Positions 39,393 to 56,988 of a stretch of DNA of 64,000 bases are shown piece after piece. A program made the position numbers and the translations under genes. The notes under the pieces are model-generated. The model was not told where the DNA came from, did not search any database, and saw nothing but the letters and a program-made list of their open reading frames with translations. The DNA is from an uncultured Caulobacterales bacterium (GTDB taxonomy: Bacteria; Pseudomonadota; Alphaproteobacteria; Caulobacterales; Caulobacteraceae): positions 1 through 64,000 of the forward strand of contig CAISEP010000023.1 in NCBI GenBank assembly GCA_903884425.1, written 5' to 3'. The number at the start of each line of letters is the position of its first letter. The stretch's first letter is position 1.

Positions 39393-39920
39393 ATGACCGA
39401 CCGCTTCATCCTGATCTCCGGCTGCTCCGGCGGCGGCAAGTCCACCCTGCTGGCAGAACTCAAGCGCCGCGGCCACGCGGTGGTGGAGGAGCCCGGCCGC
39501 CGAATCATCGCCGCCGCCAGGGTCTCGGGGGAGGACGTGCTCCCCTGGGCGAACCCGCAAGCCTTCCTGCGCCGGGCCATCGAGACGGCCCTGGCAGACC
39601 GCGCCGCTGTCGCCGCCCTGCCGGGGCCGGTGTTCTTCGACCGGGGCCTGATCGACGCCGCCTCCGGCCTGCAGGCCCTCACCGGCGAGCCTGTCCTTCG
39701 CCCCCTGGCCGACGCCCATCCGAGCCACCGCCGGGTCTTCTTCGCGCCCCCCTGGCCAGAGATCCACGAGACCGACCCCGACCGCCCCCACGGCCTCGCC
39801 GCCGCCATCGCCGAGCACGACCGCCTCGCCCGGGACTATGTCGCCCTGGGCTACGAGCTGGTGGAGTTGCCGAAGATGGACCTGGCGGCGCGGGCGGATT
39901 TTGTGCTCGGGGCGATGTAA
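39393..39920 (+). CDS. AAA family ATPase (P-loop), chromosomal gene immediately left of the element
   Basis: FILISGCSGGGKSTLLAELKRRGHAVVEEPGRRII. Confidence 0.85.
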   Translation: MTDRFILISGCSGGGKSTLLAELKRRGHAVVEEPGRRIIAAARVSGEDVLPWANPQAFLRRAIETALADRAAVAALPGPVFFDRGLIDAASGLQALTGEPVLRPLADAHPSHRRVFFAPPWPEIHETDPDRPHGLAAAIAEHDRLARDYVALGYELVELPKMDLAARADFVLGAM

Positions 39921-39930
39921 CTCAGACCGT

Positions 39931-39945
39931 GGCTTCAAGAAACAA
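39931..39945. repeat. Left copy of 15-bp direct repeat (target site duplication)
   Basis: GGCTTCAAGAAACAA, identical to 55761-55775. Confidence 0.9.
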
Positions 39946-39986
39946 GGGGTAGAGCGAAGGGCTAGACATAGCCAGAATCCGACCAC
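39946..39986 (+). repeat. Left terminal inverted repeat
   Basis: GGGGTAGAGCGAAGGGCTAGACATAGCCAGAATCCGACCAC; 31/41 identical to reverse complement of 55720-55760. Confidence 0.88.
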
Positions 39987-40007
39987 ACCTCTGGAGTGTG
40001 TCGACAT

Positions 40008-40556
40008 CTATCTCCGAGCTGGTGGTCTCCCACGGCGGGGTGCGCCATCGTCGGCCGTCTTGGATGTCAACAAAGCTACAAGGTCCTCCCGTTTGATCAG
40101 GATCCTTGACCCAACCCGATAGGATGGAAGTTGTCTGTCGGAGACCATGCGGTAAATGGTACCTTTGCTGAGGCCAACGAGATCCGCCGCCCCTTTGATC
40201 GTTACAGCCAAGGCGTTCGCAGTGGCGGTTGGCGTCGATCTAATCGCAATTGCCTGGAATATCTTATCCAGTAACGCCGCCTCGAAACCCGCAAGCTCGT
40301 AGGGCGGTCGCTCAGGCTCAACCAGGCGGCCCATTGGGAACTTTGCAATCATCCGGTCGAGGTCGTTTCGACGCCACCGGATGACCGAAAGCCCGAGTTC
40401 TACCGGCCTGACGTCGCTGGCGTTGGCAAGGTGTTGAAAGCTGTCCTCATCCAACGAAAGGTATCTGCATGCCAAAGACGTTGTCATGAGAAGTGGCCAG
40501 TTCGGCAATGGCTCGTCGAAGATCTGCCGCGTTGCGGGCGAGGGCTGTTTTGTCAT
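40008..40556 (-). CDS. Excisionase/MerR-type HTH DNA-binding protein
   Basis: VTIKGAADLVGLSKGTIYRMVSDRQLPSYRVGSRILIKREDLVALL; transcribed toward left TIR. Confidence 0.8.
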   Translation of the reverse strand: MTKQPSPATRQIFDEPLPNWPLLMTTSLACRYLSLDEDSFQHLANASDVRPVELGLSVIRWRRNDLDRMIAKFPMGRLVEPERPPYELAGFEAALLDKIFQAIAIRSTPTATANALAVTIKGAADLVGLSKGTIYRMVSDRQLPSYRVGSRILIKREDLVALLTSKTADDGAPRRGRPPARR

Positions 40557-41155
40557 TTAGGGTGCTCGGATGGTCCGGGATGTCGGGTAAGGCTAAGCGC
40601 TGAGCTAGCCGTTCGGGGATCACACATCCGCGATCGACACATGCCTGTGAGGCCGCTTGAGAAGCGTCGCCGTGAATAGGAGCGGCGGCGAGGTCTGGAA
40701 GGCAAGCACCTTGAATTTTTCCAGCTCCAAATGGATCGGCATGACGAAGCCGTCCGCATTGAGAATTTTGTGGCGTCCTACCCTCCGGAAGGCCGCTCCG
40801 ACGAAAAGGTCGCAGCTCTGTTGGATTGGGCCGCCAATCGCGCCCGCAAGCTTCGGGCTGAATTCTCTCCGATCCGGCTTCGCGAAAAGCTCGATCGAAA
40901 CGACCTGATGAATGACGAGGCTGAGGTCGCATCTTGGCGACCGGTTGAGTAAAATTGCTAAGGTCAAAAAAGTCCCAGCTTTACGGGTGTGCGTCAGCAG
41001 CCACTCGTTTTTGTTTGTACGCCGCCAGTGGCGCGATGAAGGCGAATATCGTCGCCAACATTCGGTGTGATAACTGCAGCTCGGTCGGTTATCGGGCTCT
41101 TTCCCCAAATTAATGCAAATGATTGCAGCTCAAAATGAAACCAAAATTAACCTGA

Positions 41156-41515
41156 ATGTTATCAAAAGTTGTAGACATGGTAAGAAAGTTCGTTCAGCCT
41201 CGCTGTGTCAATCTGCGAAAGGTGGCTCCAGTGTCCAACAACCGCAATCGAATCAAGTCCCTCGCATCGGCTCTGGCCGCTCTCGCCGTTCCTCTCGCCC
41301 TTGGCGGTGCTGGTGGCGCGATCGCAGCCCCGAGCTCGGTAGCTTCAAGCCAGGCGACTTCTCCTGAGAAGCCGGCTGCGGCGGACCTGCTCAGCTTTGT
41401 CGTCACCGATCAGTCGAGCGCCCAGTCGCTGTCAGATCAACATGCTTCTCATGCTTCGCACGCATCTCATGCGTCGCATGCCTCTCACGCATCGCACGCG
41501 TCGAGCGCTTTTTAG
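41156..41515 (+). CDS. hxsA: His-Xaa-Ser repeat RiPP precursor HxsA
   Basis: C-terminal QHASHASHASHASHASHASHASSAF (seven HAS units), followed by hxsD/B/C; start codon uncertain (GTG at MSNNRNR possible). Confidence 0.92.
   Translation: MLSKVVDMVRKFVQPRCVNLRKVAPVSNNRNRIKSLASALAALAVPLALGGAGGAIAAPSSVASSQATSPEKPAAADLLSFVVTDQSSAQSLSDQHASHASHASHASHASHASHASSAF
41441..41503 (+). repeat. 7 x 9-bp coding repeat encoding (His-Ala-Ser)7
   Basis: CATGCTTCT CATGCTTCG CACGCATCT CATGCGTCG CATGCCTCT CACGCATCG CACGCGTCG. Confidence 0.97.
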
Positions 41516-41520
41516 TCGAC

Positions 41521-41820
41521 ATGATCGATACAGTGCTGACCTTCTCCCGCAGCACGCAGTCTCTGACTGCGTTGCGGGAAGCCTCTTATCGTCTCATCGG
41601 TGTTGCATCGACGAAGATCGACGCGACAGACGAGAACTATGTCTGCTCCCTAAGCTCGGATCCAAAACAGAAGATCTCGGATTCAGAGCTCTCTGCTCGC
41701 TTCCTGGATTTGGTGACGGACGAGAACCTTCGAGAGCAAATCGAACAGAAGACACAGCCGTTGCGTGACGTGATTGTCGCTTTGGCCTTTGGAGCCATGG
41801 CTCAGGGTCAAAATACCTAA
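41521..41820 (+). CDS. hxsD: His-Xaa-Ser system protein HxsD
   Basis: 99-aa protein between hxsA and hxsB; size and position fit HxsD. Confidence 0.8.
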   Translation: MIDTVLTFSRSTQSLTALREASYRLIGVASTKIDATDENYVCSLSSDPKQKISDSELSARFLDLVTDENLREQIEQKTQPLRDVIVALAFGAMAQGQNT

Positions 41821-41838
41821 CTCTCTGGTCAGGAACCA

Positions 41839-43290
41839 ATGGCGAGATTTCAGGCGGTTGAGGCATTCCACCGACTAGCCGACGAGACCGTTCTGCTACC
41901 GATGAGTTTTGAGCGCATCGAAGGCGGTCGAGCCGTCATTTCAAATTTTGTCGGCGACTTTCTTACGGTCACAGATGAGGAGCTTCGACGGATCGTCGAG
42001 CTAGATGTTGCGCCAGGCGACGGGCTCTATGAGCGCGCATATGAGAAGCTCCTGATATCGGGTCGTTCTCAAATCTCACGGCTCCAGCTGATAGCGGCGC
42101 GTTACCGAACACGCATGGCTTTTGCGAATGCCGGGACCGGCCTTCATCTCTTTGTCGTCACCCTTCGATGCGAACACTCTTGTCCATACTGCCAAGTGTC
42201 ACGCCGCAGTGCCGATAAGAACCTCTTCGATATGGATGAGGTCACAGCTCAAAAAGCTCTCGATATGGCTTTTTCATCTCCCTCCCCTCAAATCAAAATT
42301 GAGTTTCAGGGCGGCGAGCCATTGTTAAATTTCGAATTAATAAAGAAAATAGTATTCTGGGGAGAAGAAAGATCGGCTGAATTGGGCAAGCCAGTCACCT
42401 TTGTTATTACAACAAACCTAGCGTTGCTGAACGATGAGGTGTTGCAATTTTCGAAAGAGCATCAAATACTTATATCAACATCGCTCGATGGACCTAAAGA
42501 TTTGCATAACAAGAACCGACCGCGCCCGGGCGGGAATAGTTATGAGCTTGCAGTTGCCGGAATAGATCGAATTCGCGAATTCCTCGGCCCTGACAAGGTT
42601 GGGGCCTTGATGACGACTACGCAGTCAAGCCTTGATAGAGCTAAAGACATTATCGATGAGTACGTAGATCGTGATTTGGGCGGAATTTTTCTCAGGCCGC
42701 TATCTCCATATGGTTTTGCAATTAAAACAAAGCAATTCGCTCGATACAAAACCGACGAGTGGTTTGAATTTTACAAAACGGGTTTAAATTATATTTTTGA
42801 AATAAATAAAGCTGGCAAACATTTTCCAGAGTTCTACGCAACCAATATACTCCGTCGCATGTTTAGCGATAGACCGACTGGATATGTCGATTTGCGAAGC
42901 CCCGCCGGTATCGGGCTGGGAGCCCTCGTGTATAACTATGACGGCCGAGTATTTGCTTCCGACGAGGGGCGAATGCTGGCTGAGATGGGTGATCGAACGT
43001 TCGACTTGGGTGACGTATTTACGAGCTCATATGAGGATATCATCCTCTCAGACAAACTCGTGGATCTTGTCGCGAATTCGCTGACCCAATGCGCGCCGCA
43101 GTGTCGGACATGTGCGTTCGAACCGCATTGCGGCGCTGATCCTGTTTATCACCACGCTACACAGGGCGACGAAGTGGGGATCAAGCCACTCTCCGAGTTC
43201 TGCCGCCGGCAGAAGAACATGATGGCACTGCTTCTGGATATTTTAGACAATTCTCCGGACGAGGCAGCTATCTTGCGGAGCTGGATCTGA
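41839..43290 (+). CDS. hxsB: His-Xaa-Ser system radical SAM maturase HxsB
   Basis: Radical SAM VTLRCEHSCPYCQVSRR; SPASM-like CAPQCRTCAFEPHCGADPVYHH...FCRRQ. Confidence 0.9.
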   Translation: MARFQAVEAFHRLADETVLLPMSFERIEGGRAVISNFVGDFLTVTDEELRRIVELDVAPGDGLYERAYEKLLISGRSQISRLQLIAARYRTRMAFANAGTGLHLFVVTLRCEHSCPYCQVSRRSADKNLFDMDEVTAQKALDMAFSSPSPQIKIEFQGGEPLLNFELIKKIVFWGEERSAELGKPVTFVITTNLALLNDEVLQFSKEHQILISTSLDGPKDLHNKNRPRPGGNSYELAVAGIDRIREFLGPDKVGALMTTTQSSLDRAKDIIDEYVDRDLGGIFLRPLSPYGFAIKTKQFARYKTDEWFEFYKTGLNYIFEINKAGKHFPEFYATNILRRMFSDRPTGYVDLRSPAGIGLGALVYNYDGRVFASDEGRMLAEMGDRTFDLGDVFTSSYEDIILSDKLVDLVANSLTQCAPQCRTCAFEPHCGADPVYHHATQGDEVGIKPLSEFCRRQKNMMALLLDILDNSPDEAAILRSWI

Positions 43291-44489
43291 TGAAGCCTTT
43301 GGTCCTCTCCGGTAGAGCCGCAAACACTTCGCCAGGACTCGAACAATTGGGGCGACGCCTCATTCGAGTGCGCGAGTTTTCCTATGATGGGTTAGGCGAA
43401 CTTTCGCCCTTCGATGCACCGCTCGTGGCGCAGCAGGATCAAATCGACTGGGGCTCAAACTTCGGGTCGGATCTGATCGTGTTGCGAGCTGCTGTCGACC
43501 AAACGGAGGAGATTCGGAAGCCCTTCGTCCGCCTTAATCGCGACTTCGACTATCTCGCAAATGGCGATCTCATCTCCGTTGACGGCCGGACCGGTCGGCT
43601 GCGGACGATCTATCGCCGGGCTTCGCGCTACAATTTTTTCCTGATCACGGAGCGGTGCAATCATCTTTGCTTGATGTGCTCCCAACCGCCAAAGGACGTG
43701 AATGACGACTGGATCCTAGAGGAGGTCTGTGAAGCCCTGCCTTTGATTGATCCTTCAACGCCGACGTTGGGGTTTACGGGTGGTGAACCGCTGACAAATC
43801 GAGATCGCTTCATCGAGATGTTGCGGATCGCCAAGGATGCGCTGCCAAGTACGGGACTGCACGTCCTAACAAACGGGAGAGCGTTTGCGGATCCGCAAGT
43901 CGCTAAGGCTTGGGCCGACGTAGCGCATCCAAACCTCACCGCAGGTATTCCGGTTTATTCCGCGGTTGATTACCTCCACGACCACGTCGTTCAGTCCAAG
44001 GGGGCGTTCGATGAGACGCTGCTCGGCATTTTGCGATTGAAGAATTTGGGCCAGCGCATCGAAATTAGGGTTGTTCTTCATGCCCTAACCGCGCCGCGCC
44101 TTGTCGAGACATGTGAATGGATTGCGCGCAATCTGCCATTTGTCGACCATGTTGCGCTCATGGGTTTGGAGAATACCGGTTACGCCATCGCCAATGACAG
44201 CCAGCTTTGGATTGATCCAATGGACTACCAGGCTAGCCTGACCGCTGGTGTTCTCGCGCTTCGGGCTGCACGCGTCCGGACTTCGATCTACAACCTACCG
44301 CTCTGCCTAATCGATGAGAGCGTTCGATCACACGCGGTTCAGTCCATATCAGACTGGAAGAACGCATATGTCGAAGAGTGTGGCAGCTGCGACGAGCGCC
44401 CAAGGTGCGCCGGATTCTTTTCGAGCGGTCGACCGAAGTTCAGCCGCGGGATCCGACCGATCGTTGGTGAGCCTCAAATCGCAGTGTGA
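43290..44489 (+). CDS. hxsC: His-Xaa-Ser system radical SAM maturase HxsC
   Basis: Radical SAM LITERCNHLCLMCSQPP; GFTGGEPL; C-terminal CGSCDERPRCAGFFSSG; overlaps hxsB by 1 bp. Confidence 0.9.
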   Translation: MKPLVLSGRAANTSPGLEQLGRRLIRVREFSYDGLGELSPFDAPLVAQQDQIDWGSNFGSDLIVLRAAVDQTEEIRKPFVRLNRDFDYLANGDLISVDGRTGRLRTIYRRASRYNFFLITERCNHLCLMCSQPPKDVNDDWILEEVCEALPLIDPSTPTLGFTGGEPLTNRDRFIEMLRIAKDALPSTGLHVLTNGRAFADPQVAKAWADVAHPNLTAGIPVYSAVDYLHDHVVQSKGAFDETLLGILRLKNLGQRIEIRVVLHALTAPRLVETCEWIARNLPFVDHVALMGLENTGYAIANDSQLWIDPMDYQASLTAGVLALRAARVRTSIYNLPLCLIDESVRSHAVQSISDWKNAYVEECGSCDERPRCAGFFSSGRPKFSRGIRPIVGEPQIAV

Positions 44490-44536
44490 GGCTGGGCCTC
44501 TTCGATGTTGTGTCGCCATTGGCGAGAGGGGGAGCA

Positions 44537-45115
44537 ATGAAGGTTCGAAAGGCAATTTTGGCAGCAATGCTTCCGCTCGTCGCCAGCTTCGGCTGTAGTC
44601 CAGCGCCGAAACAGGCGGCAAGTCCGGTGGTAGCCGTGAGCGCACCGGCTTTGCAGTTCAATGAAGATGAATTCCGAAGGCTGGCGGCCCGGGTTGACAC
44701 GCTGGAGCGCGATGCGAATTTTCAAAAATTCATGCGCAACTCGGATGAGATGGCCTCGCTAAAGCCCGACGAAAAGACGTGGCAGCAAGTGAAGACGAGT
44801 ATTGGCTACGTAGTCGTAAGTTTGGACAACGTTTCTGAATATGCAAACGGGAGTGAGATCGTTCTCCAGTTTGGAAACCCTCTCTCCGCCACGATCTCGC
44901 AGCTTTCCGCGACTGTTGAGTGGGGCCGCGTCGATGAGAAAGGCAACCCGGTTGGAGAGGCTCAGACTAAGGACGTCACGTTTACGGATGTGCTGCCGGC
45001 CGCCAGTTGGCACAAATTCAAGGTAACTTTAGCCAGCATACCGCCAAAAGAGCTTGGCTACGTGAACGTTAAGAACGTCCAATTCAGGTCGATTAGCTTG
45101 CGAAATACGTACTGA
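44537..45115 (+). CDS. DUF3251-like lipoprotein, last gene of hxs cluster
   Basis: MKVRKAILAAMLPLVASFGCSPAP lipobox; upstream AGGGGGAG SD-like; ORF track start 44486 less likely. Confidence 0.65.
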   Translation: MKVRKAILAAMLPLVASFGCSPAPKQAASPVVAVSAPALQFNEDEFRRLAARVDTLERDANFQKFMRNSDEMASLKPDEKTWQQVKTSIGYVVVSLDNVSEYANGSEIVLQFGNPLSATISQLSATVEWGRVDEKGNPVGEAQTKDVTFTDVLPAASWHKFKVTLASIPPKELGYVNVKNVQFRSISLRNTY

Positions 45116-45211
45116 TTTTTGGCCAACTCGCCATGTCGCTCCCATAAGGCATATTAGACGCAAATCGTCCCGTAGCGACCTGCAGTAACGCGATCACCTG
45201 CAGCTAGAACT

Positions 45212-46111
45212 TCATCCTCGAAAGATTTGTCGCTGAAAGCGTATCGCGTCAATCGACGGCCAATCGGACTTTAGCTTCGGCAGGCGAGCGCGACGACCTG
45301 CAAGTTTCGAATAGGATGTCTCTGCCAGAACGGGGCTGACAAGCGTTGTGTAGTCGTCGGCAAACGCGATAAGGCCCGCATCAAAAAGCGCGTGAAGGTC
45401 TTTGCGCAGCAACAAGCCGTTCTGGACGTGATGGCTGGCCTCGGACACGTACGGCTGAATATGCGCTGCATCGAGAACTTCGGAGCAGGCTACGCCTGAA
45501 ATGGCACACCGGCGCTCATAGGCATGCATCACGGTCGACCTGAACCGCGCCTGATCCGGTCGAAGATAGACCGTGCCAGCCTGTCCACTACTCCGCGCAC
45601 CAGGGACGAGTTGGAAGTTATCCGGCGATCGAACATCGTAGCCGGGAATTTCAATCTCCCCACGGTAGGATTTGTATTTCACGATGTTGACGGCGAAGTC
45701 GACGCCAAGCTCGTCTGCCGTCAACTGTTGCCCGGGGCCAAACAGGGTCACGTCCGAAAGGAGGATGCACCCAATCGGATCGTTCGATGCCCGCGGGCGG
45801 ACGGACCTTGCCGCCGCAAAGCTGTCAACCCGCTGCCGGAGCTCCTCCGGGCTCGCAACGCCGTTCCCGAGGCCGAATAGCTCCCAGGCCTTTTCGACGG
45901 TATGTTCCTCATAGCCAGCTATCAGACCGAACCCGCCAATTTTCCGGATCGGGGATTTGAGCATGAACAGCCACCGGGCCCCGGGTTCGAGGGCCGCGGG
46001 ACGCCAAAGAGTCGGCGTCCAGAAATTTGCCGTAGCAGGCGTTCCATGCAGGGTCAGGAACTCGTGCCACCGCGGATCCGTCACCCCGATATAATACATA
46101 AGTGATTCCAC
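45212..46111 (-). CDS. HNH endonuclease (restriction-type)
   Basis: RRCAISGVACSEVLDAAHIQPYVSEASHHVQNGLLLRKDLHALFDAGLIAF. Confidence 0.85.
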   Translation of the reverse strand: MESLMYYIGVTDPRWHEFLTLHGTPATANFWTPTLWRPAALEPGARWLFMLKSPIRKIGGFGLIAGYEEHTVEKAWELFGLGNGVASPEELRQRVDSFAAARSVRPRASNDPIGCILLSDVTLFGPGQQLTADELGVDFAVNIVKYKSYRGEIEIPGYDVRSPDNFQLVPGARSSGQAGTVYLRPDQARFRSTVMHAYERRCAISGVACSEVLDAAHIQPYVSEASHHVQNGLLLRKDLHALFDAGLIAFADDYTTLVSPVLAETSYSKLAGRRARLPKLKSDWPSIDAIRFQRQIFRG

Positions 46112-46147
46112 CTCAGATCGAACTGTCAGTTCAAATTACATCTGAGG
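46111..46147. promoter_or_regulatory. Nested inverted repeat upstream of HNH gene
   Basis: CCTCAGATCGAACTGTCAGTTCAAATTACATCTGAGG: outer 8-bp arms, inner GAACTG-T-CAGTTC. Confidence 0.5.
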
Positions 46148-46260
46148 CAGAAATTGTCTCAATGGTCTTGCGAACGAACCCCTCCGATATGCCTGACTAT
46201 CACCGGCCGGGCGGGTTCATCGAAATAGCTAGTGCAGCAATCCGCTTCGCGTGCATCCCG

Positions 46261-46719
46261 TCAGAACGGCGACAATGCCAAGTCGGGGCGGCCAAATCCT
46301 ATCCCTCGGGAGTCTGACATCAGATCTGCGAGAATGTTTTCGCGAAGGATGAGCGGCCGGATCCTGAAGATCGATATGGGCTCATAGCAGCGCTCTTCGG
46401 CCTCATATCGGTCGCCCTCCGGGTGATCATTCCATCCGGCAGCGACCGGCTCCAGGCGATAGTTCGCGCGCAGGCGGTCTCGTTCAAAGACGAGGATAGT
46501 CGGTGTGCCAGAGCAAGACCCGCGTGGCAGGCAGGCGAAATGGAATGCGATCGCTGGGTTGCGTGTGAAGGAAATGACCGGGTCTCCGACCTCGGCGGGA
46601 ACAAGCGCTCCCCGCCGCAATATCTGGTCGGCATACCTTGTCCCGTGGAACAGGGGATTTCTGACCAACTTCTGAAGCGCCGTTCGCGCTACGTTCGGTA
46701 GCCGTGACGGGAGGGTCAT
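46261..46719 (-). CDS. Uncharacterised protein, possible ADP-ribosyltransferase-like fold
   Basis: NPLFHGTRYADQILRRGALVPAEVGDPVISFTRNPAIAFHFA...EAEERCYEPI; overlaps polB stop by 4 bp. Confidence 0.5.
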   Translation of the reverse strand: MTLPSRLPNVARTALQKLVRNPLFHGTRYADQILRRGALVPAEVGDPVISFTRNPAIAFHFACLPRGSCSGTPTILVFERDRLRANYRLEPVAAGWNDHPEGDRYEAEERCYEPISIFRIRPLILRENILADLMSDSRGIGFGRPDLALSPF

Positions 46720-49700
46720 GGCTCAGACCCTCGTCCTTTCAATCGCAACCGGGTCAGACGCTTACTCAGGTTGGAGGGGTCGCAGTTCAAAACTTTTGCT
46801 GCCGGCCGAAGGCCTCCAGCGCACCTGATTGCGTCTTCAAGCGCGAGCCTCTGCTGGGATTTGAGGTACGTTTGACTGCGGGAGCGGTCATCGAGCGCCA
46901 CGAGGCTGCGTCTGATCTCTGACGGTCGCTTCGTTACCCGGCCGACCCACCCCCGTTCGATGTTCGCCAGCGTTGCACGGCTGATCCCTGTTTCCCGGAA
47001 AACGGCCGACTTTCCATGCGTTCGGATTGCCCTCCGCAGAGAGCCATAGACGGCGGAGTATTCCTCGGCATCGGGACCATAGGTTACCTGAAGTTCGGTA
47101 GCCCCAAGCCCCAGGACATATTCCTCCTCCCATCGGTCGGCCTCTTTTCCAATCAGTACGGCCCCTTGTGCGCGGACATGACAGCGTTCGGTCGGTCCGG
47201 TGTCGTAGGCGCGCCCGTTCAGAAACTTCGCCTCCGGTCGGAAGGGGTAGGCCTTGAGCGCTTCCTCATATGTCTCGAGGCTGTCAAGATCGATCGGGAG
47301 ACCGGTGACCCGGTCAAACGCCTTGGCAATCGCGGTCGACAGGTCCTTTTCGAACGGGGCTACCGGATAAATTTTGCCAGGGCGGCCTGGTCCTCGCGCA
47401 AGCGTATCAGGCCCGTCATCCGGGTGCTGTACTCGCCTGCTCGCATGCAGGATGTACAGGAACCCGAACGGCTTCAGCTGTTCAGCATAAGGCTTGCCCA
47501 TATTCCATTTGGCAAACCACCCGAGGAGCTCCGGGCTGCTGGCGGTGTAGCGACTGACTGTCGGGGCCTTCATGGCCGGGTGATAGTCAAACCGGACCTG
47601 ATTGGGATGTCCGGCCAAAACCGCACTCAGGATGGCAAACCAGACATCGTAGTGCCATCGCAACAGCTTTTCCCGGCCGCCGATGACGCCCGTGAGCGGC
47701 GCCGGAAAGTGTGGCGGTGCATCCTCGTCCGGGTAGGGCGAGAGCAAATGGCCCAACCCATGCGCAGAAGCCTTCCGGATCACTGGAACGCCGGCCTCGT
47801 CGATGTTGAAGAGCGCATAACGCTTCGATGAGATGGCGTAGCAGTAGAGTGGAACGAGCCGCGTGGGGGCGCCGGGCGCATAGTTGATCTTCTCGATTTT
47901 GAGGATTGAGTCCTCGAAGCCGTAAGGGTTCAAAGGTTTGAACCACTCCACGACGGAAAGGGCGCGGGCCTCAAACGTCGCGTCGTCCATGTCAGAGGGT
48001 TTGGCGAGGGCCAGGCTGTCCGTGTCGCAAAACGCCCAGTCGAGACCGGCGTCGAGAGCCTTGCGCTCCGCCAAGGCCAACATGAGCCGCGCGGCGCCGG
48101 TGATCAGGGTGGCGATCAGCGGGTTGAACCACGGCCCCGGCGTTTCGACCTTCTTTGTCGTCCGTTCAAATGAGCGGCCGTCAGCACACCAGACACGAAC
48201 CCTCTGTCCGCGTCTGGCGGCGTTGACGTTCATTTGGACAAAAATGCCGTAGCTGGTCGCATTGGCGAGGATCTTCAGGGCGTTCCGGAGTTCCTCAATA
48301 ACGGCTTGCTCCTCGGGTGATTTACCGGCCTTGCTCGCGTCTTCCAGTTGGCGGGTACGGATCAGCTCCCGGAAGAAGTCCTGATTGTAGGGGTCTATGG
48401 TGTGGCGACCCACCAGCCGGATTGGCTTCAGCCCAGCCTGTGGCGGACCCGGGCTGAACAGAATGGCTTCCTCGACTGGCGGGGTCTTCCCGGTGAGAAA
48501 TTTGGCGACGAGACAGTCTGCTAATGTGAACCACTGGCTTGCATTCCCATGGAGAAAGTTCAGCCCAATCGTTGCGTGAACCTGTCCCGGGTATTCCCCC
48601 CGGATAGGGACAAGTTCTCCGCCAGGAGTGAGCCTTACCAGCGCTGTGAGGTGACGCCAGATGTCGCGATCGCGGAATGTCTCCGGCGTAGCAGCTTCGA
48701 GGAAAGCGCGTATCTCGTCGGTTGCCACGACGGCTGTGAAGCCCTCTCCGATGATGAATTTCCAGAGGTTCTGAAGAACACAAACCGTCGGGTACATGGA
48801 CGTGAAGTCAGTCTGGATGACTCGCACCACCTCGCGGCGGCGGTGAACTTCTGTCCTGCCGCCGTAGTAGCTGGATATGACCCGGCTCGTCATTCCGCCG
48901 TCAGGACCGCCCGGCTGGACCTCCCGCCACGGCCTGATGTTCATGGTCGATAGCGCCGACTTGCCGATACTCGCCTCGCTGATCAGGTCGTAGATCGGCA
49001 TGTCGAGCTGATAGACCGCGTATCGGTCACACAGGATCCGGTAGCATTCCCAGGTCGCTTTCACGTCGTCGCGGGCATAGTCGATATAGGCGTCGTCCAG
49101 CTCGTAACCATGGCTGTCGCTTTGGCGCTTCTGTGTTGCCGTCCCAAGCGCGCGTGTAAGCGATTCCAGACTGTGTGAGCGGGAGAGCAGAGCCGCCGCG
49201 ATCGTCTTGACGTCGCAAAAGTGGCCGCGGTGAACCGGTGTGTTTTCTCCGCGCCGCCGATGCGATCGCGACGTGGACTTACCCCCAGGGGCCGACCACT
49301 CGCAGAGATAGGCGCGCGGGTTCAGCGACTTAATCTGCAGCCGCGGCATCCGCGTGCTCGGACTGAATGCGAGGCTGAACCCGTCCTGCATCTTCGGCCG
49401 CCAGGTCGTGGCGCGCGCGTTACTGCCCGCAAGCGCGGCGCGCGCGAAATCGAAGGCGCCATTGAACGTTACGATCGTTGCGCCGAGCTCATAGGCCCGC
49501 TTGAGCATCACCTCGATCTGAAAGTCCGCGAGATCCATCGGCGGTAGGAGGCCGCGCGTGGCGCAGTACCGTTCGGCGCACGCGATTTCAGCAGGCGCCA
49601 ACGCGTCCCGGTCGATGACGAGGCGCTCCTCATCAAGCTTATTGCCCCTGAACAGCCGGTAGAATGCCAACCTGAGCCGCTGAGTTGGGTCGGTTGTGGT

Positions 49701-49895
49701 TTCGCAGTCCCAGACAAGGGTCCAGATGGACGGGCCGACGCGTTTCGCGCGCGGCTTCTTCTTTCGACGATCAGCGCCAGGCGCGCCCTTATTGCCGTCT
49801 CCATAGTTTTGGTCATCGATCGCCTCCGCGTAAGCGCGGATTGAGATCGGTAAAAGGAACGGCGATTGCGCCGTTCCTTCTCCCTGATGGCTCAT
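46716..49895 (-). CDS. polB: Family-B DNA polymerase with 3'-5' exonuclease and C-terminal HTH-like extension
   Basis: Exo I VWDCETTTD; Exo II FNGAFDFA; Exo III DYARDDVKATWE; motif A TDFTSMYPT; motif B LANATSYGIF; motif C FCDTDSLAL. Confidence 0.92.
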   Translation of the reverse strand: MSHQGEGTAQSPFLLPISIRAYAEAIDDQNYGDGNKGAPGADRRKKKPRAKRVGPSIWTLVWDCETTTDPTQRLRLAFYRLFRGNKLDEERLVIDRDALAPAEIACAERYCATRGLLPPMDLADFQIEVMLKRAYELGATIVTFNGAFDFARAALAGSNARATTWRPKMQDGFSLAFSPSTRMPRLQIKSLNPRAYLCEWSAPGGKSTSRSHRRRGENTPVHRGHFCDVKTIAAALLSRSHSLESLTRALGTATQKRQSDSHGYELDDAYIDYARDDVKATWECYRILCDRYAVYQLDMPIYDLISEASIGKSALSTMNIRPWREVQPGGPDGGMTSRVISSYYGGRTEVHRRREVVRVIQTDFTSMYPTVCVLQNLWKFIIGEGFTAVVATDEIRAFLEAATPETFRDRDIWRHLTALVRLTPGGELVPIRGEYPGQVHATIGLNFLHGNASQWFTLADCLVAKFLTGKTPPVEEAILFSPGPPQAGLKPIRLVGRHTIDPYNQDFFRELIRTRQLEDASKAGKSPEEQAVIEELRNALKILANATSYGIFVQMNVNAARRGQRVRVWCADGRSFERTTKKVETPGPWFNPLIATLITGAARLMLALAERKALDAGLDWAFCDTDSLALAKPSDMDDATFEARALSVVEWFKPLNPYGFEDSILKIEKINYAPGAPTRLVPLYCYAISSKRYALFNIDEAGVPVIRKASAHGLGHLLSPYPDEDAPPHFPAPLTGVIGGREKLLRWHYDVWFAILSAVLAGHPNQVRFDYHPAMKAPTVSRYTASSPELLGWFAKWNMGKPYAEQLKPFGFLYILHASRRVQHPDDGPDTLARGPGRPGKIYPVAPFEKDLSTAIAKAFDRVTGLPIDLDSLETYEEALKAYPFRPEAKFLNGRAYDTGPTERCHVRAQGAVLIGKEADRWEEEYVLGLGATELQVTYGPDAEEYSAVYGSLRRAIRTHGKSAVFRETGISRATLANIERGWVGRVTKRPSEIRRSLVALDDRSRSQTYLKSQQRLALEDAIRCAGGLRPAAKVLNCDPSNLSKRLTRLRLKGRGSEP

Positions 49896-50458
49896 TTGTC
49901 CGAGCCCCCTGCAGATCCGCTGTGCAAGGTCGGGTGAGCTCTGGCTAGCCAGGCTTCCAGCTGATCCATTCCAACGGCGCGCGCGCGGCGCCGGGTCCGG
50001 ATGTCCGTTGGCGAGCCCCCGACTTCGGCGCCGGCTTCACCGTCGCCGCTGGAAGGGTCGTTACCCCCATTACCATTGGCGATGGGTGGAGGGTCGATAT
50101 CGCCGATCAAACACTGAATGGTCTCGAAGTTGGCCTGGATCTGCATCTCCGCGACCTCGTTTTGACCGTAGAGGCGATTGATCAGTGCGACGCGGTTGGC
50201 CGGCAGGTTCGGCGGGAGAGGAATACGGTCTTTCACGGTGTCTCCAATCTTGTCGTGGCAGTCGCCACAGATGAAAAGGATGTCAGGGGGAAGTAGAGCT
50301 TCGTAAGCCCGGCCGGAGATGTGATGGCGCTCGTACCGGATGCGCCAATCGCCTTTTCCGCAGATCCGGCAGTAGGGATCATTGGTTCGCAGGCTTCGGT
50401 ATCTCCGAAATCTGCGAGCCTCTCTTCTAAGTTCTCGGTCATGCATTTTAATTCTCAC
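49892..50458 (-). CDS. HNH endonuclease-domain protein
   Basis: DPYCRICGKGDWRIRYERHHISGRAYEALLPPDILFICGDCHDKIGD; 4-bp overlaps with both neighbours. Confidence 0.85.
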   Translation of the reverse strand: MRIKMHDRELRREARRFRRYRSLRTNDPYCRICGKGDWRIRYERHHISGRAYEALLPPDILFICGDCHDKIGDTVKDRIPLPPNLPANRVALINRLYGQNEVAEMQIQANFETIQCLIGDIDPPPIANGNGGNDPSSGDGEAGAEVGGSPTDIRTRRRARAVGMDQLEAWLARAHPTLHSGSAGGSDK

Positions 50459-51048
50459 TGTTCGATCCTGTAGAACCGCTCAAAACTGTAGTCCTGAGCG
50501 AGAACTGCGGCGTAGAGGTGGTTGAGGTCGGTCGAGAACGGATGAAACTTCCCCGTCACGTCGCGGACTCCTCGTCCTTCCCAACGCCTGACGAACTCTT
50601 CGAAGCGGCTTTGATCGTCGAGAGCCAAACCGGCTTCATGAAAGTGAAGCCCCGCTTCGTGCGCCGGCTCGAAGCCACGAACCCTGATCGTCACCGGATG
50701 GTATTGGCCGGCTTCGACGATCGTGATTTCGCGGATGCGCTGATCCTGGAAGCGCCAGGTCTGGCCTTCCCGGTAAGCGCCTGCGACGGACTGGATGTAT
50801 CGGGTAAACCGCTCCCGGCTTACGCCGGCTTCCTTGGCTACTGCCGATGCCGATCCACCAAATCTGCGGAGGCGTCTCAGCGCTTCTTCGAGGCGTCCGT
50901 CATAGGCGGGCTTCGGCGGGCCGCGGGCCGATGCGTAGCCCTCGCCGGAACGCGGGTGGCCTCGGGCCTGTGAGCGAGATAGCCCGCGGGTGGTCGCTCG
51001 CTCTATTCGTCGAGCATATTCCGCTTTGAAATCTCGGGGCTTACGCAT
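50455..51048 (-). CDS. HTH domain protein, first gene of polB operon
   Basis: GGSASAVAKEAGVSRERFTRYIQSVAGAYREG; N-term FKAEYARRIERATTRGLSRSQARGHPR. Confidence 0.65.
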   Translation of the reverse strand: MRKPRDFKAEYARRIERATTRGLSRSQARGHPRSGEGYASARGPPKPAYDGRLEEALRRLRRFGGSASAVAKEAGVSRERFTRYIQSVAGAYREGQTWRFQDQRIREITIVEAGQYHPVTIRVRGFEPAHEAGLHFHEAGLALDDQSRFEEFVRRWEGRGVRDVTGKFHPFSTDLNHLYAAVLAQDYSFERFYRIEQ

Positions 51049-51115
51049 TTTTGATGCCGCTGACTAAGATTGACCCCTAAGATCAAAGCGGCATCGTTTG
51101 AGAAATTAAAGGAGC

Positions 51116-51829
51116 TCAATTGGAAGCCCATCGCCGTGGAAATCGTATGTTTTGACTTTCCAGTTCTTTCCAGGCTCTATTTTTGTAATTGGCCCAGGTT
51201 CTTCTGTCTACTGGCGGGACATTATGAGTGGCGCTCAGCTTCTTTTTACTAATCAAAACGTTGAGCTCGGCAATGATATCAGAATGAAATGTACCGTCCC
51301 ATTCTGGATTATCTTTGACGTAATCAACTAAGACGGTCACGCCAGCGTCAACGAAGCCCGTACTGCCACCGCGACCTTTTGGTCTGTCGCGCATACGATC
51401 TTCAGGCGCTCCCGGCGGATTGCTTGTCGGTTGGGCCACCCCTTCGGACGAAACGTTCAACGAATGCTGTCCAAAATAGGCTACTATGTCGGTGAGCGTT
51501 TGGTTCGGGGCGTTGAGAGTACCTTTGTGCAGGTCAATGTATGGCCTATGGCAGAGGGCGGGTCGAACCCTCTCTAAGGTTTCGACCCCGTCACTTCCCT
51601 TTGATTTGCCGACAGCAACAACAGAGCCGTTTTGTAATCTTTTAAGGACCTCAAATTCAAGATTTTCTATTTCTTCAAAGTCTCCATTTTCTGGTCGATA
51701 TATCAAATTGGTCCAATATTCTCTTTCTTCGGCCGGCGTAATTTCGAGAATCGCGAGAGAAAGAGGAACTCCATCGCGAAAAATCCGCTCCAATTCATAC
51801 CGCAAGGCTGTTTTCCGGCTCATCGGCAT
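51116..51829 (-). CDS. Uncharacterised 237-aa protein, divergent from cas1
   Basis: Long ORF with lower-GC coding pattern; no family recognised. Confidence 0.6.
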   Translation of the reverse strand: MPMSRKTALRYELERIFRDGVPLSLAILEITPAEEREYWTNLIYRPENGDFEEIENLEFEVLKRLQNGSVVAVGKSKGSDGVETLERVRPALCHRPYIDLHKGTLNAPNQTLTDIVAYFGQHSLNVSSEGVAQPTSNPPGAPEDRMRDRPKGRGGSTGFVDAGVTVLVDYVKDNPEWDGTFHSDIIAELNVLISKKKLSATHNVPPVDRRTWANYKNRAWKELESQNIRFPRRWASN

Positions 51830-51922
51830 TGTCCGAATTTCACGCGCTGAACGGGGACGATTTTTCGGGTCAAGTCGCCGATTTTGTGGGATATTTCTGT
51901 AAATATTCTGAGCGGTATTGCA

Positions 51923-53008
51923 ATGACAGTATCAGCCTCGATCGCTGCGCCGAACCATCTCGATTGGGCGGAACGAAACGACTACTGGCAATCTACCGCT
52001 ACATCAAAAAGTCAGCGGTCTCGATCGGCCCGAGAAACCAAACCCCTCATTCTAACCGGGCATGGTGTTTCGATCGCGCTAGATCGCGGAACTCTGTTGA
52101 TCCGAAATGGCCTCACTCATTTTCCGCAGGAGCGCGAGATTTTCCGCCTCTTCAAGGGTGATCTCGAATTGCCGTCACGCATAATCATGCTGGATGGATC
52201 CGGGCGACTTACCTTCGATGTCATCAGCTGGCTCTCGGACCAGGCGGTGCCGCTTGTCCAGATTGACTATACCGGTCGCGTCATTAGCGTCATCGGCGGT
52301 TCTGGCTTTGCGTCGGACCCGGAAAAGGTTCGCTGGCAAATTGAGACCCGAAATGATCCCGAGCGCCGGCTTGCGTTCTGCTGCAATCTGATCGCGGAAA
52401 AGCTCAAATCTAGCGTCCGCACGCTGAACGATGTCGTGCCTGACAGCTCCGCTAGAGCTATTGCGATTGCTCGGGCTGAGGGCTGCATCAATCTGCTCCG
52501 AAACGGACGATTAAAGTCGGTCGAAGACGTTCGAATGGTAGAGGCTCAAGCGGCGGCGTCGTATTTTCGGGCGTGGAAGTCGATATCGCTAAAATGGCGA
52601 TCGCTATGGAAACACCCAATTCCGGATAATTGGCTAACGATCGGATCCAGGGGCACCTTGAGTCGGGCGAAGCTTGCGACAAACAGAAACGCGCGCCACC
52701 CCGTAAACGCGATGCTGAACTACGCCTATGGTGTTCTGTACAGTAAGGGGCACATTGACGCCTTGGTCCGTGGCTTCGATCCGAGACGAGGAATTATGCA
52801 TCACGACAGAGATGACGGCGATGCATTGGCAATGGTTTTTGATTTGGTAGAGCCAAGCAGGCCAACGGTAGACGCCGCCGTCCTAAAATTCATCCAAATA
52901 GAACCGCTAAGGCCCGCCGACTTTGTCGTTAATTCATCGGGTGTCTGTCGCCTTGTGCCCGGCCTAGCTCGGGCGATCGCTGCTGTCGCTACGAACGCGT
53001 GCGATTAG
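51923..53008 (+). CDS. cas1: Cas1 family integrase (candidate casposase)
   Basis: RIIMLDGSGRLTFDVISWLSDQAVPLVQIDYTGRVISVIGGSGFASDPEKVRWQ; catalytic VEAQAAASYFRAW (E), GIMHHD (H), VFDLVEPSRPTVD (D); RNARHPVNAMLNYAYGVL. Confidence 0.92.
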   Translation: MTVSASIAAPNHLDWAERNDYWQSTATSKSQRSRSARETKPLILTGHGVSIALDRGTLLIRNGLTHFPQEREIFRLFKGDLELPSRIIMLDGSGRLTFDVISWLSDQAVPLVQIDYTGRVISVIGGSGFASDPEKVRWQIETRNDPERRLAFCCNLIAEKLKSSVRTLNDVVPDSSARAIAIARAEGCINLLRNGRLKSVEDVRMVEAQAAASYFRAWKSISLKWRSLWKHPIPDNWLTIGSRGTLSRAKLATNRNARHPVNAMLNYAYGVLYSKGHIDALVRGFDPRRGIMHHDRDDGDALAMVFDLVEPSRPTVDAAVLKFIQIEPLRPADFVVNSSGVCRLVPGLARAIAAVATNACD

Positions 53009-53153
53009 AGCGGGTTAGGGAATCGAAAGCCAACTCGGGGTGGTCATAATGATGAGTCTCGGTAACTTGGCTACGGGCAATTATTTTCGGAGTTGGCGCG
53101 CCGCAGCGCGCACCGTATTAGTCTGACAAAGACCTCAACTTACGAGCTGCGCG

Positions 53154-55619
53154 ATGGCAGAAATCCGGAAATTTGTCAGAGTATTTCTGGCCTCCCCTAG
53201 TGATTTAGTTGAGGAAAGACGAGCCGCAAAGATCGTTGTCGACGAAGTAAACGACACACTAGCTGATTATACTGGTTATAGCGTTGAGCTCGTTGGCTGG
53301 GAGCTAACTGTTTCACAGTTCGGTCGACCGCAAGAGTTAATAAATAGAGACCTCGATCGCTGTGAATTATTTGTTGGTATGATGTGGAAGCGATGGGGGA
53401 CGAAACCTGACCTTGATGGGCCATACACATCAGGGTTTGAGGAGGAATTCCGCCGCTCCATAGACCGTCGGGCGAAGACCGGTGTCCCTGAGATCAGCAT
53501 GTTCTTTAAAGCGATCGACGTCGAAGCTGTGCGTGACCCAGGAGAAGAGCTTAAGCGTGTGTTAAAATTTCGGAAGGACCTCACAGATTCGAGAATATTA
53601 TTATACAGTGAATTTACCAATCTAGATGAATTTCGAAGCCTTCTGCGCAAATCCATTTCATCATATATAATAAATCTTAAACGGCGTGAAGACGGTGCGG
53701 CTCTCGAAGACACGAGATCAGTTTCAAGCATAGAAGAAGTCGACCGCGGTGACCGCGCGAGCGAAGACGAAAATGCTCAAATGGCCGCGAATTCGGCGGA
53801 ATTTGTTCGGAACTTTCTGGCTCGAGCGACACGATCGGGCGGCTTGGATACGCTCGACGCGGCGGACATCTCTCGATTTCGCCTGATAGCGTGCACCTTC
53901 CGTGGCAGCGGAAATGATGACCAAGTTATCGGTACTCACGATGCAAATATAATATACCGCGCACGTCCATTTCCCGAATTTAGCAAAAATGAACTTTGGG
54001 GTTTGCTCATATCCGGAATTGAACACTACAATTCGGAAAATACGCCCATCTGGAGGTGGTATGCATCGGTGGCGGACAGAATATGGATGCCGCTAACACT
54101 CCAGTCATTGGCAGGGTCGCATACAGCGCGGCGTATCGGTGCAATTCAAGCGATGATCGATATCGGGGAATTGTTGCCGAGAGAAGATCCAATGCGACGA
54201 GAGATTATCGAAGCCTGGTTAGACGATGAGGCACCCTCGCAAGTCAAAAAGCAAGCACTCAGCTATCTGGCCGAATTTGGTGATATCAGTGACGTAAGAC
54301 ATGTTGAAAATGAACTATCAAAAAATAATGTCGAAACAAATTCGACGGCTGCGGTCGCAGCAATTAGAATTTATCTAAGGCAAAGTCGACCGGTAGCGTT
54401 TGAAAACATTATCAGGCTCTCACCGGAGCGAATTCAGCGAGATGTAGTTAGAGAGTTATTTTCTGAGTTGAGTGGCATATCTAACGAAACGCTGATCTTA
54501 GCCATTTCCTGTCGGGATCCTGGACTTCGCATAGCGGCAGTTAATGCTCTCATCGAAAGAGACGCGCTGTCATCTGACATCGCGAGAGAGCTGCTAGATG
54601 ACGATAGCTACGATATTCGGCTCGCGGCGATGAAACTACTCGTACGGACTGGAGAATCCTTTTCGGCCGCGGAGCGCAATTCTCTGCTGGTGCAGAGTGC
54701 AAGGCAAAGCGCTCTAGGTGGATTAGCAGGCCTCGCCGCGGATCTGGGTCCGAATCGCGAGAAGCTGGAAGCATTTAATCGTTGGGAATTGTCACGTTTA
54801 ACCGATCAAGAGCTTGAGGCAAAAGAGGGTATTCTAGATCGAGATCCACATTTTGAGCTTTTGGACCGAAGGTTTCAACAACGAGGCGACGAGCTGCGTG
54901 AGGCTGTTGCCGACCGGTACGGCGCTAAATTCAACCGTGAAATTAATGCTCTCCGGGCGAGGCACGGGGCTGAAGTTGAACTCGTCGGAAAGATTGAAAA
55001 GCTACGCGACAGGTTATGCAAATCCCACACGCGCCAGGGATTAGATATCATCGCGAAGAAACGTCAAAAAATCGATTTGGGTCTGATGCGCCAATTAGTG
55101 CGGGAAGAGTATATACTATACTCTTCAGAAATAGTACAATTTCTCGAAAATTTTGGTGATTGGTCCGATGTGCCCAGTATTATTGAATTAGTCGAAAGAG
55201 GCTCTTCATTCGATCGTCCTTATCTATCTAACTCGTCGGATCAAACATTTAGCATCGCTGCGTCCGCAATTAGACGACTGTCGAAAGGAAAGATGCCTGA
55301 TTTGGTGAATATAACTATGCCGCCGCGCCTCCTATCTCACGTATTGGCGCAGATGACGACTGGCGAATTTAAACAAATCAGTGATGATGAGATAACTAGT
55401 ATTTTTAGAAATGACAATCAGGATGTACGAAAGGCCGCCGCCTTGAGATGTGTAGTTGTTTTCAGTCGGAGTAAAATTGTCAAAATACTGGAACAATATA
55501 CAGATTCGGATAAACGACAATATTATAATATAATTCATTGGCTGGATCTTGGCGCTTCAATTCCTAGAGACCGAGCGATCGCAGCAGCTAAACGAATATT
55601 GGCTAGAGAGTGGGCGTGA
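53154..55619 (+). CDS. DUF4062 domain protein with C-terminal HEAT-like repeats
   Basis: RVFLASPSDLVEERRAAKIVVDEVNDTL...ELINRDLDRCELFVGMMWKRWGTKP...SGFEEEFRRS; alpha-helical repeat-like remainder. Confidence 0.75.
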   Translation: MAEIRKFVRVFLASPSDLVEERRAAKIVVDEVNDTLADYTGYSVELVGWELTVSQFGRPQELINRDLDRCELFVGMMWKRWGTKPDLDGPYTSGFEEEFRRSIDRRAKTGVPEISMFFKAIDVEAVRDPGEELKRVLKFRKDLTDSRILLYSEFTNLDEFRSLLRKSISSYIINLKRREDGAALEDTRSVSSIEEVDRGDRASEDENAQMAANSAEFVRNFLARATRSGGLDTLDAADISRFRLIACTFRGSGNDDQVIGTHDANIIYRARPFPEFSKNELWGLLISGIEHYNSENTPIWRWYASVADRIWMPLTLQSLAGSHTARRIGAIQAMIDIGELLPREDPMRREIIEAWLDDEAPSQVKKQALSYLAEFGDISDVRHVENELSKNNVETNSTAAVAAIRIYLRQSRPVAFENIIRLSPERIQRDVVRELFSELSGISNETLILAISCRDPGLRIAAVNALIERDALSSDIARELLDDDSYDIRLAAMKLLVRTGESFSAAERNSLLVQSARQSALGGLAGLAADLGPNREKLEAFNRWELSRLTDQELEAKEGILDRDPHFELLDRRFQQRGDELREAVADRYGAKFNREINALRARHGAEVELVGKIEKLRDRLCKSHTRQGLDIIAKKRQKIDLGLMRQLVREEYILYSSEIVQFLENFGDWSDVPSIIELVERGSSFDRPYLSNSSDQTFSIAASAIRRLSKGKMPDLVNITMPPRLLSHVLAQMTTGEFKQISDDEITSIFRNDNQDVRKAAALRCVVVFSRSKIVKILEQYTDSDKRQYYNIIHWLDLGASIPRDRAIAAAKRILAREWA

Positions 55620-55719
55620 TTACCAATTGAAATATATTGACATCTACATCAATAATCAACATTTCGAATGGGTTAACTTTTCAAGCAACGCCTAATATTT
55701 TCACGGGGCAGCCGCTAAC

Positions 55720-55760
55720 GTGGTGCGCTCCTGGCTAGGGCGCTCCCTTCGCTATACCCC
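55720..55760 (-). repeat. Right terminal inverted repeat
   Basis: Reverse complement GGGGTATAGCGAAGGGAGCGCCCTAGCCAGGAGCGCACCAC. Confidence 0.88.
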
Positions 55761-55775
55761 GGCTTCAAGAAACAA
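55761..55775. repeat. Right copy of 15-bp direct repeat (target site duplication)
   Basis: GGCTTCAAGAAACAA. Confidence 0.9.
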
Positions 55776-55777
55776 AA

Positions 55778-55792
55778 GAACATATTGCGAAC
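55778..55792 (+). promoter_or_regulatory. LexA/SOS box of recA
   Basis: GAAC-ATATTGC-GAAC (GAAC-N7-GAAC). Confidence 0.85.
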
Positions 55793-55834
55793 GGAGAACA
55801 AACCATGCACAGTGCGCCCATGCCGTCCGGGACG

Positions 55835-55873
55835 ATATGACCCGCTGGGCGGCCATATGACCCGCTGGGCGGG
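55835..55873 (+). repeat. Tandem 20-bp repeat in recA 5' leader
   Basis: ATATGACCCGCTGGGCGGCC ATATGACCCGCTGGGCGGG. Confidence 0.85.
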
Positions 55874-55905
55874 ATGAGAATCGTGGCAGAAGGATCGCAG
55901 GTTCC

Positions 55906-56988
55906 ATGACACAGGCGGCTTTGAAACTCGTGGCGAAGGTAGATACCGACAAGCAGAAGGCTCTTGAGGCGGCCCTGTCCCAGCTGGACCGGGCCTTCGG
56001 CAAGGGCGCGGTGATGAAGCTGGGTGCCAAGGGCAAGGTCGTGGAGATCGAGAGCGTGTCCACCGGCTCCCTGGGTCTCGACCTGGCGCTCGGCATCGGC
56101 GGCCTGCCGAGGGGCCGGGTGATCGAGATCTACGGCCCGGAAAGCTCCGGCAAGACCACGCTCGCCCTGCACGTGGTGGCGGAGGTGCAGAAGACCGGTG
56201 GCACGGCGGCCTTCGTCGACGCCGAACATGCCCTCGACCCCTCCTACGCCCAGCGGCTGGGGGTGAACCTCGACGATCTGCTGGTGTCGCAGCCGGACAA
56301 TGGCGAACAGGCGCTGGAGATCACCGACACCCTGGTCCGCTCCAACGCCGTGGACATCATCGTGGTGGACTCCGTGGCCGCCCTGACCCCCCGCGCGGAA
56401 ATCGAGGGCGACATGGGGGACAGCCTGCCCGGACTGCAGGCCCGGCTGATGAGCCAGGCCCTGCGCAAGCTCACCGGCTCCATCTCCAAGTCCAAGTGCA
56501 TCGTCATCTTCATCAACCAGATCCGGATGAAGATCGGCGTCATGTACGGCAATCCGGAAACCACCACCGGGGGCAACGCCCTGAAGTTCTACGCCTCCGT
56601 CCGCCTCGACATCCGCCGCACCGGCTCCATCAAGAACCGGGACGAGATCGTCGGCAACAACGTCAAGGTTAAGGTGGTCAAGAACAAGGTCGCCCCGCCC
56701 TTCCGGGAGGTGGAGTTCGACATCATGTACGGGGAGGGCATCTCCAAGCTGGGGGAGATCATCGACCTGGGCGTGAAGGCGGGCCTGGTGGAGAAGTCCG
56801 GCTCCTGGTTCTCCTACAACAGCCAGCGCATCGGCCAGGGCCGCGAGAATGTGCGGGAGTTCCTGAAGCAGAACCCGGACATCGCCGCGGACATCGAGGC
56901 GGCTGTGCGCAAGAACTCGGTGAAGATCGCCGACAAGCTGCTGGCGGACCCCGAGCCCGACGCCGACACCGACGTCGAACCGGACTGA
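55906..56988 (+). CDS. recA: Recombinase RecA
   Basis: [15 protein letters not shown]...[24 protein letters not shown]. Confidence 0.97.

Follow-up and report, generated by a model that had tools for sequence, protein, structure and literature searches.

A casposon at the recA SOS operator of an alphaproteobacterium and a casposase clade that may use this operator as its leader

The window analysed here, a 64,000-nucleotide stretch of a contig from an uncultured Caulobacterales bacterium, contains a 15.8-kb casposon inserted directly in front of recA. We consider it probable (roughly 0.8) that this is a site-specific recA-promoter casposon, belonging to a group whose casposase clade uses the recA SOS operator as an asymmetric 'leader'. 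This reading is built on the position and orientation of the insertion, its recurrence in other genomes, the conserved operators of uninserted relatives and the association of the site with a single casposase clade. Cas1 would recognize the operator directly, and recA would continue to be regulated normally.

The element occupies positions 39946..55760 (15,815 bp) between two perfect 15-bp direct repeats, GGCTTCAAGAAACAA, which represent the target-site duplication (TSD) and lie at 39931..39945 and, on the recA side, at 55761..55775 (15/15 match). Terminal inverted repeats (TIRs) begin exactly inside the direct repeats, with GGGGTAGAGCGAAGGG... opening the left one (39946..39986, plus strand) and GGGGTATAGCGAAGGG... 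the right one (55720..55760, read on the minus strand), and are 76% identical over 41 nt. The start of the left TIR is conserved in relatives, nearly all of which share the terminus GGGGTATAG and the same architecture. GC content is 0.42-0.64 inside the element versus about 0.70 outside. The casposase gene, cas1 (51884..53008, plus strand; PF01867, 5.1e-32), is transcribed toward recA. On the minus strand lie genes for a family B DNA polymerase (PolB) of 1059 aa (46716..49895), an HNH-type nuclease (49892..50458) and an HTH-like protein (50455..51048). PolB matches PF03175 weakly, below the cut-off, and is assigned by homology over its length to PolBs of sister casposons (38-48% identical). 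The HNH-type protein has no Pfam match but a visible CxxC-HH-CxxCH motif, and its gene is conserved beside polB in most relatives. Further genes include, at the end far from recA, one for an HTH_17/excisionase-type DNA-binding protein (40008..40556, minus strand; PF12728, 6.2e-17; TIGR01764, 1e-15) and two cargo segments on the plus strand. The first, at 41156..44489, encodes a His-Xaa-Ser peptide cluster (HxsA-like, HxsD, HxsB and HxsC) with matches to TIGR03976, TIGR03978 (3e-179) and TIGR03977 (1.1e-113) and a weak HxsA match; including a lipoprotein-like gene, this radical-SAM peptide cargo extends over 41156-45115. The second, at the recA end (53154..55619), encodes a DUF4062 and HEAT protein (PF13271, 6.5e-7) whose N-terminus matches the PADLOC candidate defence family PDC-S60 (3.7e-30). 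No other Cas protein was found among the element ORFs scanned, and no tyrosine or serine recombinase or DDE transposase among the element proteins scanned against Pfam and NCBIfam. By its TIRs with flanking 14-15 bp TSDs, its PolB gene and its stand-alone Cas1 with intact proposed catalytic residues, the element is a casposon, and Cas1-catalysed integration is predicted. Membership in family 3 is likely, given that the HNH gene is present and that the casposase groups with Henriciella elements, in the same wider Cas1 clade, in a tree built without reference family-3 sequences.

On the recA side, a LexA box, GAACATATTGCGAAC (55778..55792, plus strand), begins 2 bp after the right TSD and is followed by GAACAAA (55796..55802, plus strand); we propose these two as the parts of the casposase leader. 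The intact recA gene (55906..56988, plus strand; 360 aa; TIGR02012, E 1.8e-174, 579.6 bits) has no second full copy in the genome. The other flank carries a P-loop ATPase gene (39393..39920, plus strand) whose end is separated from the left TSD by 10 bp. The earlier note had read these positions correctly throughout, placing the repeat end at 55775, the box start at 55778 and the left junction 10 bp past the ATPase stop codon. It had also called the box a LexA site, which the comparison with relatives bears out. The motif alone is weak evidence for an operator, since the 3.58-Mb genome holds 68 copies of GAACN7GAAC. However, AGAACATNTTG[CG][CG]AAC..GAAC[AG]AA is found upstream of recA in 13/13 uninserted genomes of the same family, and the casposon-free genome of the same genus, G528, is identical to the window at 29/29 bases across the box and GAACAAA. 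DNA beyond the junction, on the far side from recA, is not conserved. For these reasons, this GAAC/GTTC-N7 direct repeat, of the form expected of an SOS operator and conserved across relatives, is taken as the recA LexA operator, with LexA binding predicted from its conservation. The comparison of filled and empty sites is one-sided, being restricted to the recA side, because in none of the 13 relatives does a close counterpart of the ATPase gene lie next to recA (the best same-genus match to the ATPase, only 46% identical, is located on another contig) and, in G528, the sequence in front of the operator bears no relation to the left flank of the window.

As the earlier note pointed out, the sequence in front of the TSD now consists entirely of element DNA, and the upstream (UP-type) sequence of the recA promoter is lost on insertion. 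Nevertheless, the insertion leaves intact, on the recA side, both the operator and a proposed core promoter whose -35 overlaps the box and whose -10-like sequence lies downstream of GAACAAA. This placement of the core promoter is based on conservation; a scan with the sigma-70 consensus returned no promoter at the operator, as is not unexpected for alphaproteobacterial promoters. Since the operator, GAACAAA and the -10-like sequence remain beside recA, normal SOS control would be expected, and control of recA is probably kept after each of the insertions described below. Altered recA expression is thus not indicated.

Relatives of the element were gathered by a PolB alignment search over GTDB genomes and a Cas1 alignment search over selected genomes (397 of the host order, 398 of the order of a Beijerinckiaceae match, and further families), and their termini were mapped by TSD plus TIR. 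A search of the order centred on the Brevundimonas genome recovered the same elements as one centred on the window, which places the host of the window in the order of Brevundimonas (Caulobacterales) and probably in the Caulobacteraceae. Profile scans of viral contigs added no relatives with the PolB alignment and one with the Cas1 alignment; one casposon fragment is filed as a viral contig (IMGVR_UViG_3300012268_000167). Both ends could be mapped in 27 alphaproteobacterial casposons, of which 21 lie in hairpins, one upstream of comM/yifB and five in the recA promoter. The recA-site elements are those of the window, a Brevundimonas MAG (L122), a Beijerinckiaceae MAG (L073) and genomes G1143 (L208) and G1534 (L247/L219), at least two of the five cases thus coming from MAGs. 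Read on the recA strand from the junction, the five sequences are aagaacatattgcgaacggagaacaaa, aagaacatattggcaaccagaacaaa, cagaactttacattgggaacaaa, aagaacttgttgttaagaacaaa and aagaacttgctcttgagaacaaa; the stretches that directly follow the duplicated repeat are AAGAACATATTGCGAACGGAGAACAAA in the window, AAGAACATATTGGCAACCAGAACAAA in L122, CAGAACTTTACATTGGGAACAAA in L073, AAGAACTTGTTGTTAAGAACAAA in L208 and AAGAACTTGCTCTTGAGAACAAA in G1534. All conform to [A/C]AGAAC-N10..14-GAACAAA followed by recA, with the junction always 2 bp before the GAAC half-site and the Cas1-proximal end always facing the operator. In L122, the TSD and TIR share five letters, so that the boundary can shift; a 15-bp repeat was used. 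Five of 27 elements landing within 150 bp upstream of recA has a binomial chance of 1e-17, before allowing for shared ancestry, and, together with the base-exact junctions, this rules out chance placement. The cargo of L208 (2233-6886) includes two PAS/HWE-type histidine-kinase-like ORFs and an ABC-transporter-like ORF, as judged by eye from the translation. On the Brevundimonas MAG contig (G779:C8; L164, L166), a full recA adjoins the casposon, and a truncated second copy of recA lies at the end of the contig, perhaps as the product of a chimeric assembly.

The same site and orientation, and casposases that form one clade, could also be the legacy of a single ancestral recA insertion inherited vertically, recurrence then being common descent. 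This is very improbable: the hosts belong to different orders, the element is absent from nearly all sampled relatives, including G528, and the TSDs and cargo differ while the flanking sequence varies. The other recA-site casposases are only about 45-53% identical to that of the window.

A sixth element, in G358 (approximately C1:1692692-1706870), lies upstream of the YifB/ComM gene (TIGR00368) beside the box GTTCTTTATTTGTTC, making a second SOS-type promoter a casposon target. Its junction, followed by GTTAACACGCAGAAACGAACAAA with a boundary uncertain by 1-2 bp, resembles the recA motif, including GAACAAA, and its Cas1-proximal end likewise faces the box. In the literature examined, no source was found for LexA regulation of comM in Caulobacter. 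Since comM is otherwise unrelated to recA, the presence of LexA-type boxes at all six sites might mean that the target is LexA-bound DNA, with the casposase or a partner protein of the element docking on LexA. The register of the box makes this unlikely. In the Caulobacteraceae-like hosts (the window and L122), the box with its N7 spacing is entirely external to the repeat and starts 2 bp from it (one mismatch is present in L122), whereas in L073, L208 and G1534 the box, which is GAACAAAAAAAGAAC in most uninserted relatives, straddles the TSD edge and is regenerated on the recA side by the duplication. The offset to a single GAAC is constant all the same, which favours a reading of sequence by the casposase over docking on LexA. 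Moreover, target selection in vitro in Aciduliprofundum boonei requires no protein other than the casposase (PMC6614799).

The remaining 21 elements have GC-rich, mostly palindromic TSDs, such as CCCGCGAAGGCGGG and CCCCAGTTTTCACTGGGG, in intergenic repeats or terminator-like hairpins. A GC-rich palindromic hairpin as TSD (L072, L076-L078, L081-L085, L087, L088, L171-L174, L178-L180, L184-L186) seems to be what the wider clade normally targets. The duplicated unit at these sites resembles a CRISPR repeat. In L171 (2966-12213), the flanks begin with further casposon-terminus sequence, TATAGTTATCTCC, which suggests tandem or nested casposons sharing a repeat, and L186 (4038-5996) is a 1.9-kb remnant with TIR, a 20-bp TSD and only a broken cas1, that is, a decayed mini-casposon. 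The rule that the TSD is a GC-rich palindrome does not extend to the recA group, where no significant palindrome was detected in the TSDs (p = 0.10 for the window, p >= 0.7 for the others). An exact LexA box is found near the junction in 5/6 SOS-site versus 0/21 hairpin-site elements (p = 7e-5), and no LexA-type box occurs within 150 bp of any of the latter. That relatives sit in operator-free intergenic hairpins means that the wider clade is not operator-specific, and one could suppose that all these elements merely require an accessible promoter or intergenic region, hairpins and recA promoters being equally permissive. We regard this as hardly credible in view of a base-exact offset and fixed orientation at one gene among thousands, and of the lack of LexA boxes near hairpin-site elements.

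In the Cas1 tree, the recA-site casposases form one clade (88/76 with L219 included), within which the window and L122 are joined at 100/97; the four labelled recA-site sequences group together in 91% of bootstrap trees. The proposed catalytic residues E220, H306, D320 and E323 are kept in 5/5 members. The target of L219 was unknown when the tree was made, because its sequence stretch began after the junction. As it fell inside the recA clade, placement at recA was predicted from the tree; recA was then found on the same contig, and 3 kb more sequence gave the fifth junction, with the TSD TTTTTGTTCTCGTT, although this is a single prediction. The G358 casposase lies outside the recA clade. The recA operator is therefore the target of one casposase clade only, the wider clade mostly using GC-rich hairpins. 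The proposal that the recA regulatory region is a distinct safe site holds for five casposons from different genera and two orders, but is confined to this clade. Specificity could instead be conferred by an accessory HTH protein rather than by Cas1: the HTH-like protein encoded beside polB (in the window a weak YdaS match, below cut-off) has homologues 26-44% identical in nearly all sister casposons, and TnsD-like targeting by HTH proteins has been proposed for casposons (PMC4046053). We find this rather unlikely, as target type follows the Cas1 tree and the A. boonei and N. koreensis casposases recognize their targets in vitro without an HTH protein (PMC6614799). Within Cas1, a search for residues fixed throughout the recA clade yet uncommon outside it gave none.

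Targets reported for casposons comprise tRNA 3' ends, the 3' end of aEF-2 and intergenic loci not further specified (PMC4046053, PMC9939771). Full-text literature searches, which covered few subscription papers, returned no casposon target at recA or LexA. Family 3 casposons as published, such as HenMar-C1 of Henriciella marina (PMC4046053), resemble the window element in having cas1, polB and HNH genes with no added Cas1 domain, TIRs and TSDs, and alphaproteobacterial hosts, and differ from it in that the window target is the recA operator. With the archaeal casposons of A. boonei and Methanosarcina mazei it shares a 14-15 bp TSD, an asymmetric target, an upstream leader and an intact target gene, although in their case the 3' end of a tRNA, rather than a regulated promoter, serves as leader (PMC6614799, PMC9939771). 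Target recognition by the A. boonei casposase depends on the first two TSD bases together with a leader motif situated 9-15 bp from the TSD (PMC6614799), and the M. mazei enzyme likewise requires an upstream motif (PMC9939771). In the mechanism that we favour, the recA operator would take a place equivalent to these motifs. The Cas1-proximal element end would be joined 2 bp before the GAAC half-site of [A/C]AGAAC-N10..14-GAACAAA and the adjacent 14-15 bp duplicated. The leader would remain next to recA together with one copy of the repeat, and the insertion would thus spare the LexA operator and the core promoter. Functional constraint would keep such a site present in every host, and occupying it would be harmless, much as for attTn7 or the tRNA 3' ends used by archaeal casposons. 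CRISPR Cas1-Cas2 spacer integration at the leader-repeat junction is likewise leader-anchored and duplicating and relies on a homologous Cas1, but no Cas2 was seen in the window element, and a 15.8-kb element is inserted rather than a spacer. Tn7, at its attTn7 site downstream of glmS, also uses a conserved safe site by an essential or important gene in a specific orientation; unlike the window element, it does so with DDE/TnsABCD machinery and targets a gene 3' end rather than a promoter operator.

Coupling of excision or integration to DNA damage, as suggested in the earlier note, finds no support so far, and neither does SOS control carried by the element itself. Internal GAAC/GTTC-N7 repeats number 1, 1, 1, 1 and 2 in the five elements, barely above the 0.36-0.62 expected from mononucleotide shuffles; none of these was linked to a cas1 promoter, and the window element has no convincing SOS box. 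Damage might still gate integration or excision, even with no SOS box in the element, if the casposase reads the LexA operator and competes for it with LexA, an idea that we put forward only tentatively. In healthy cells, LexA would shield the site, which SOS induction would expose through LexA cleavage and opening of the recA promoter. Damage-stimulated casposon movement has a precedent in M. mazei, where mitomycin C raised casposon excision in one strain (PMC10359463).

A casposase clade with a conserved, protein-bound regulatory operator as its leader would constitute a new class of casposon target. CRISPR adaptation has been proposed to descend from casposons, and the choice of a leader-flanked target by Cas1 is central to that proposal. 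The recA operator offers a ready-made in vitro substrate for the casposase, and the sister clades that target hairpins amount to a natural experiment in the change of casposase specificity. The docking site of these casposons would thereby be linked to the master switch of DNA repair.
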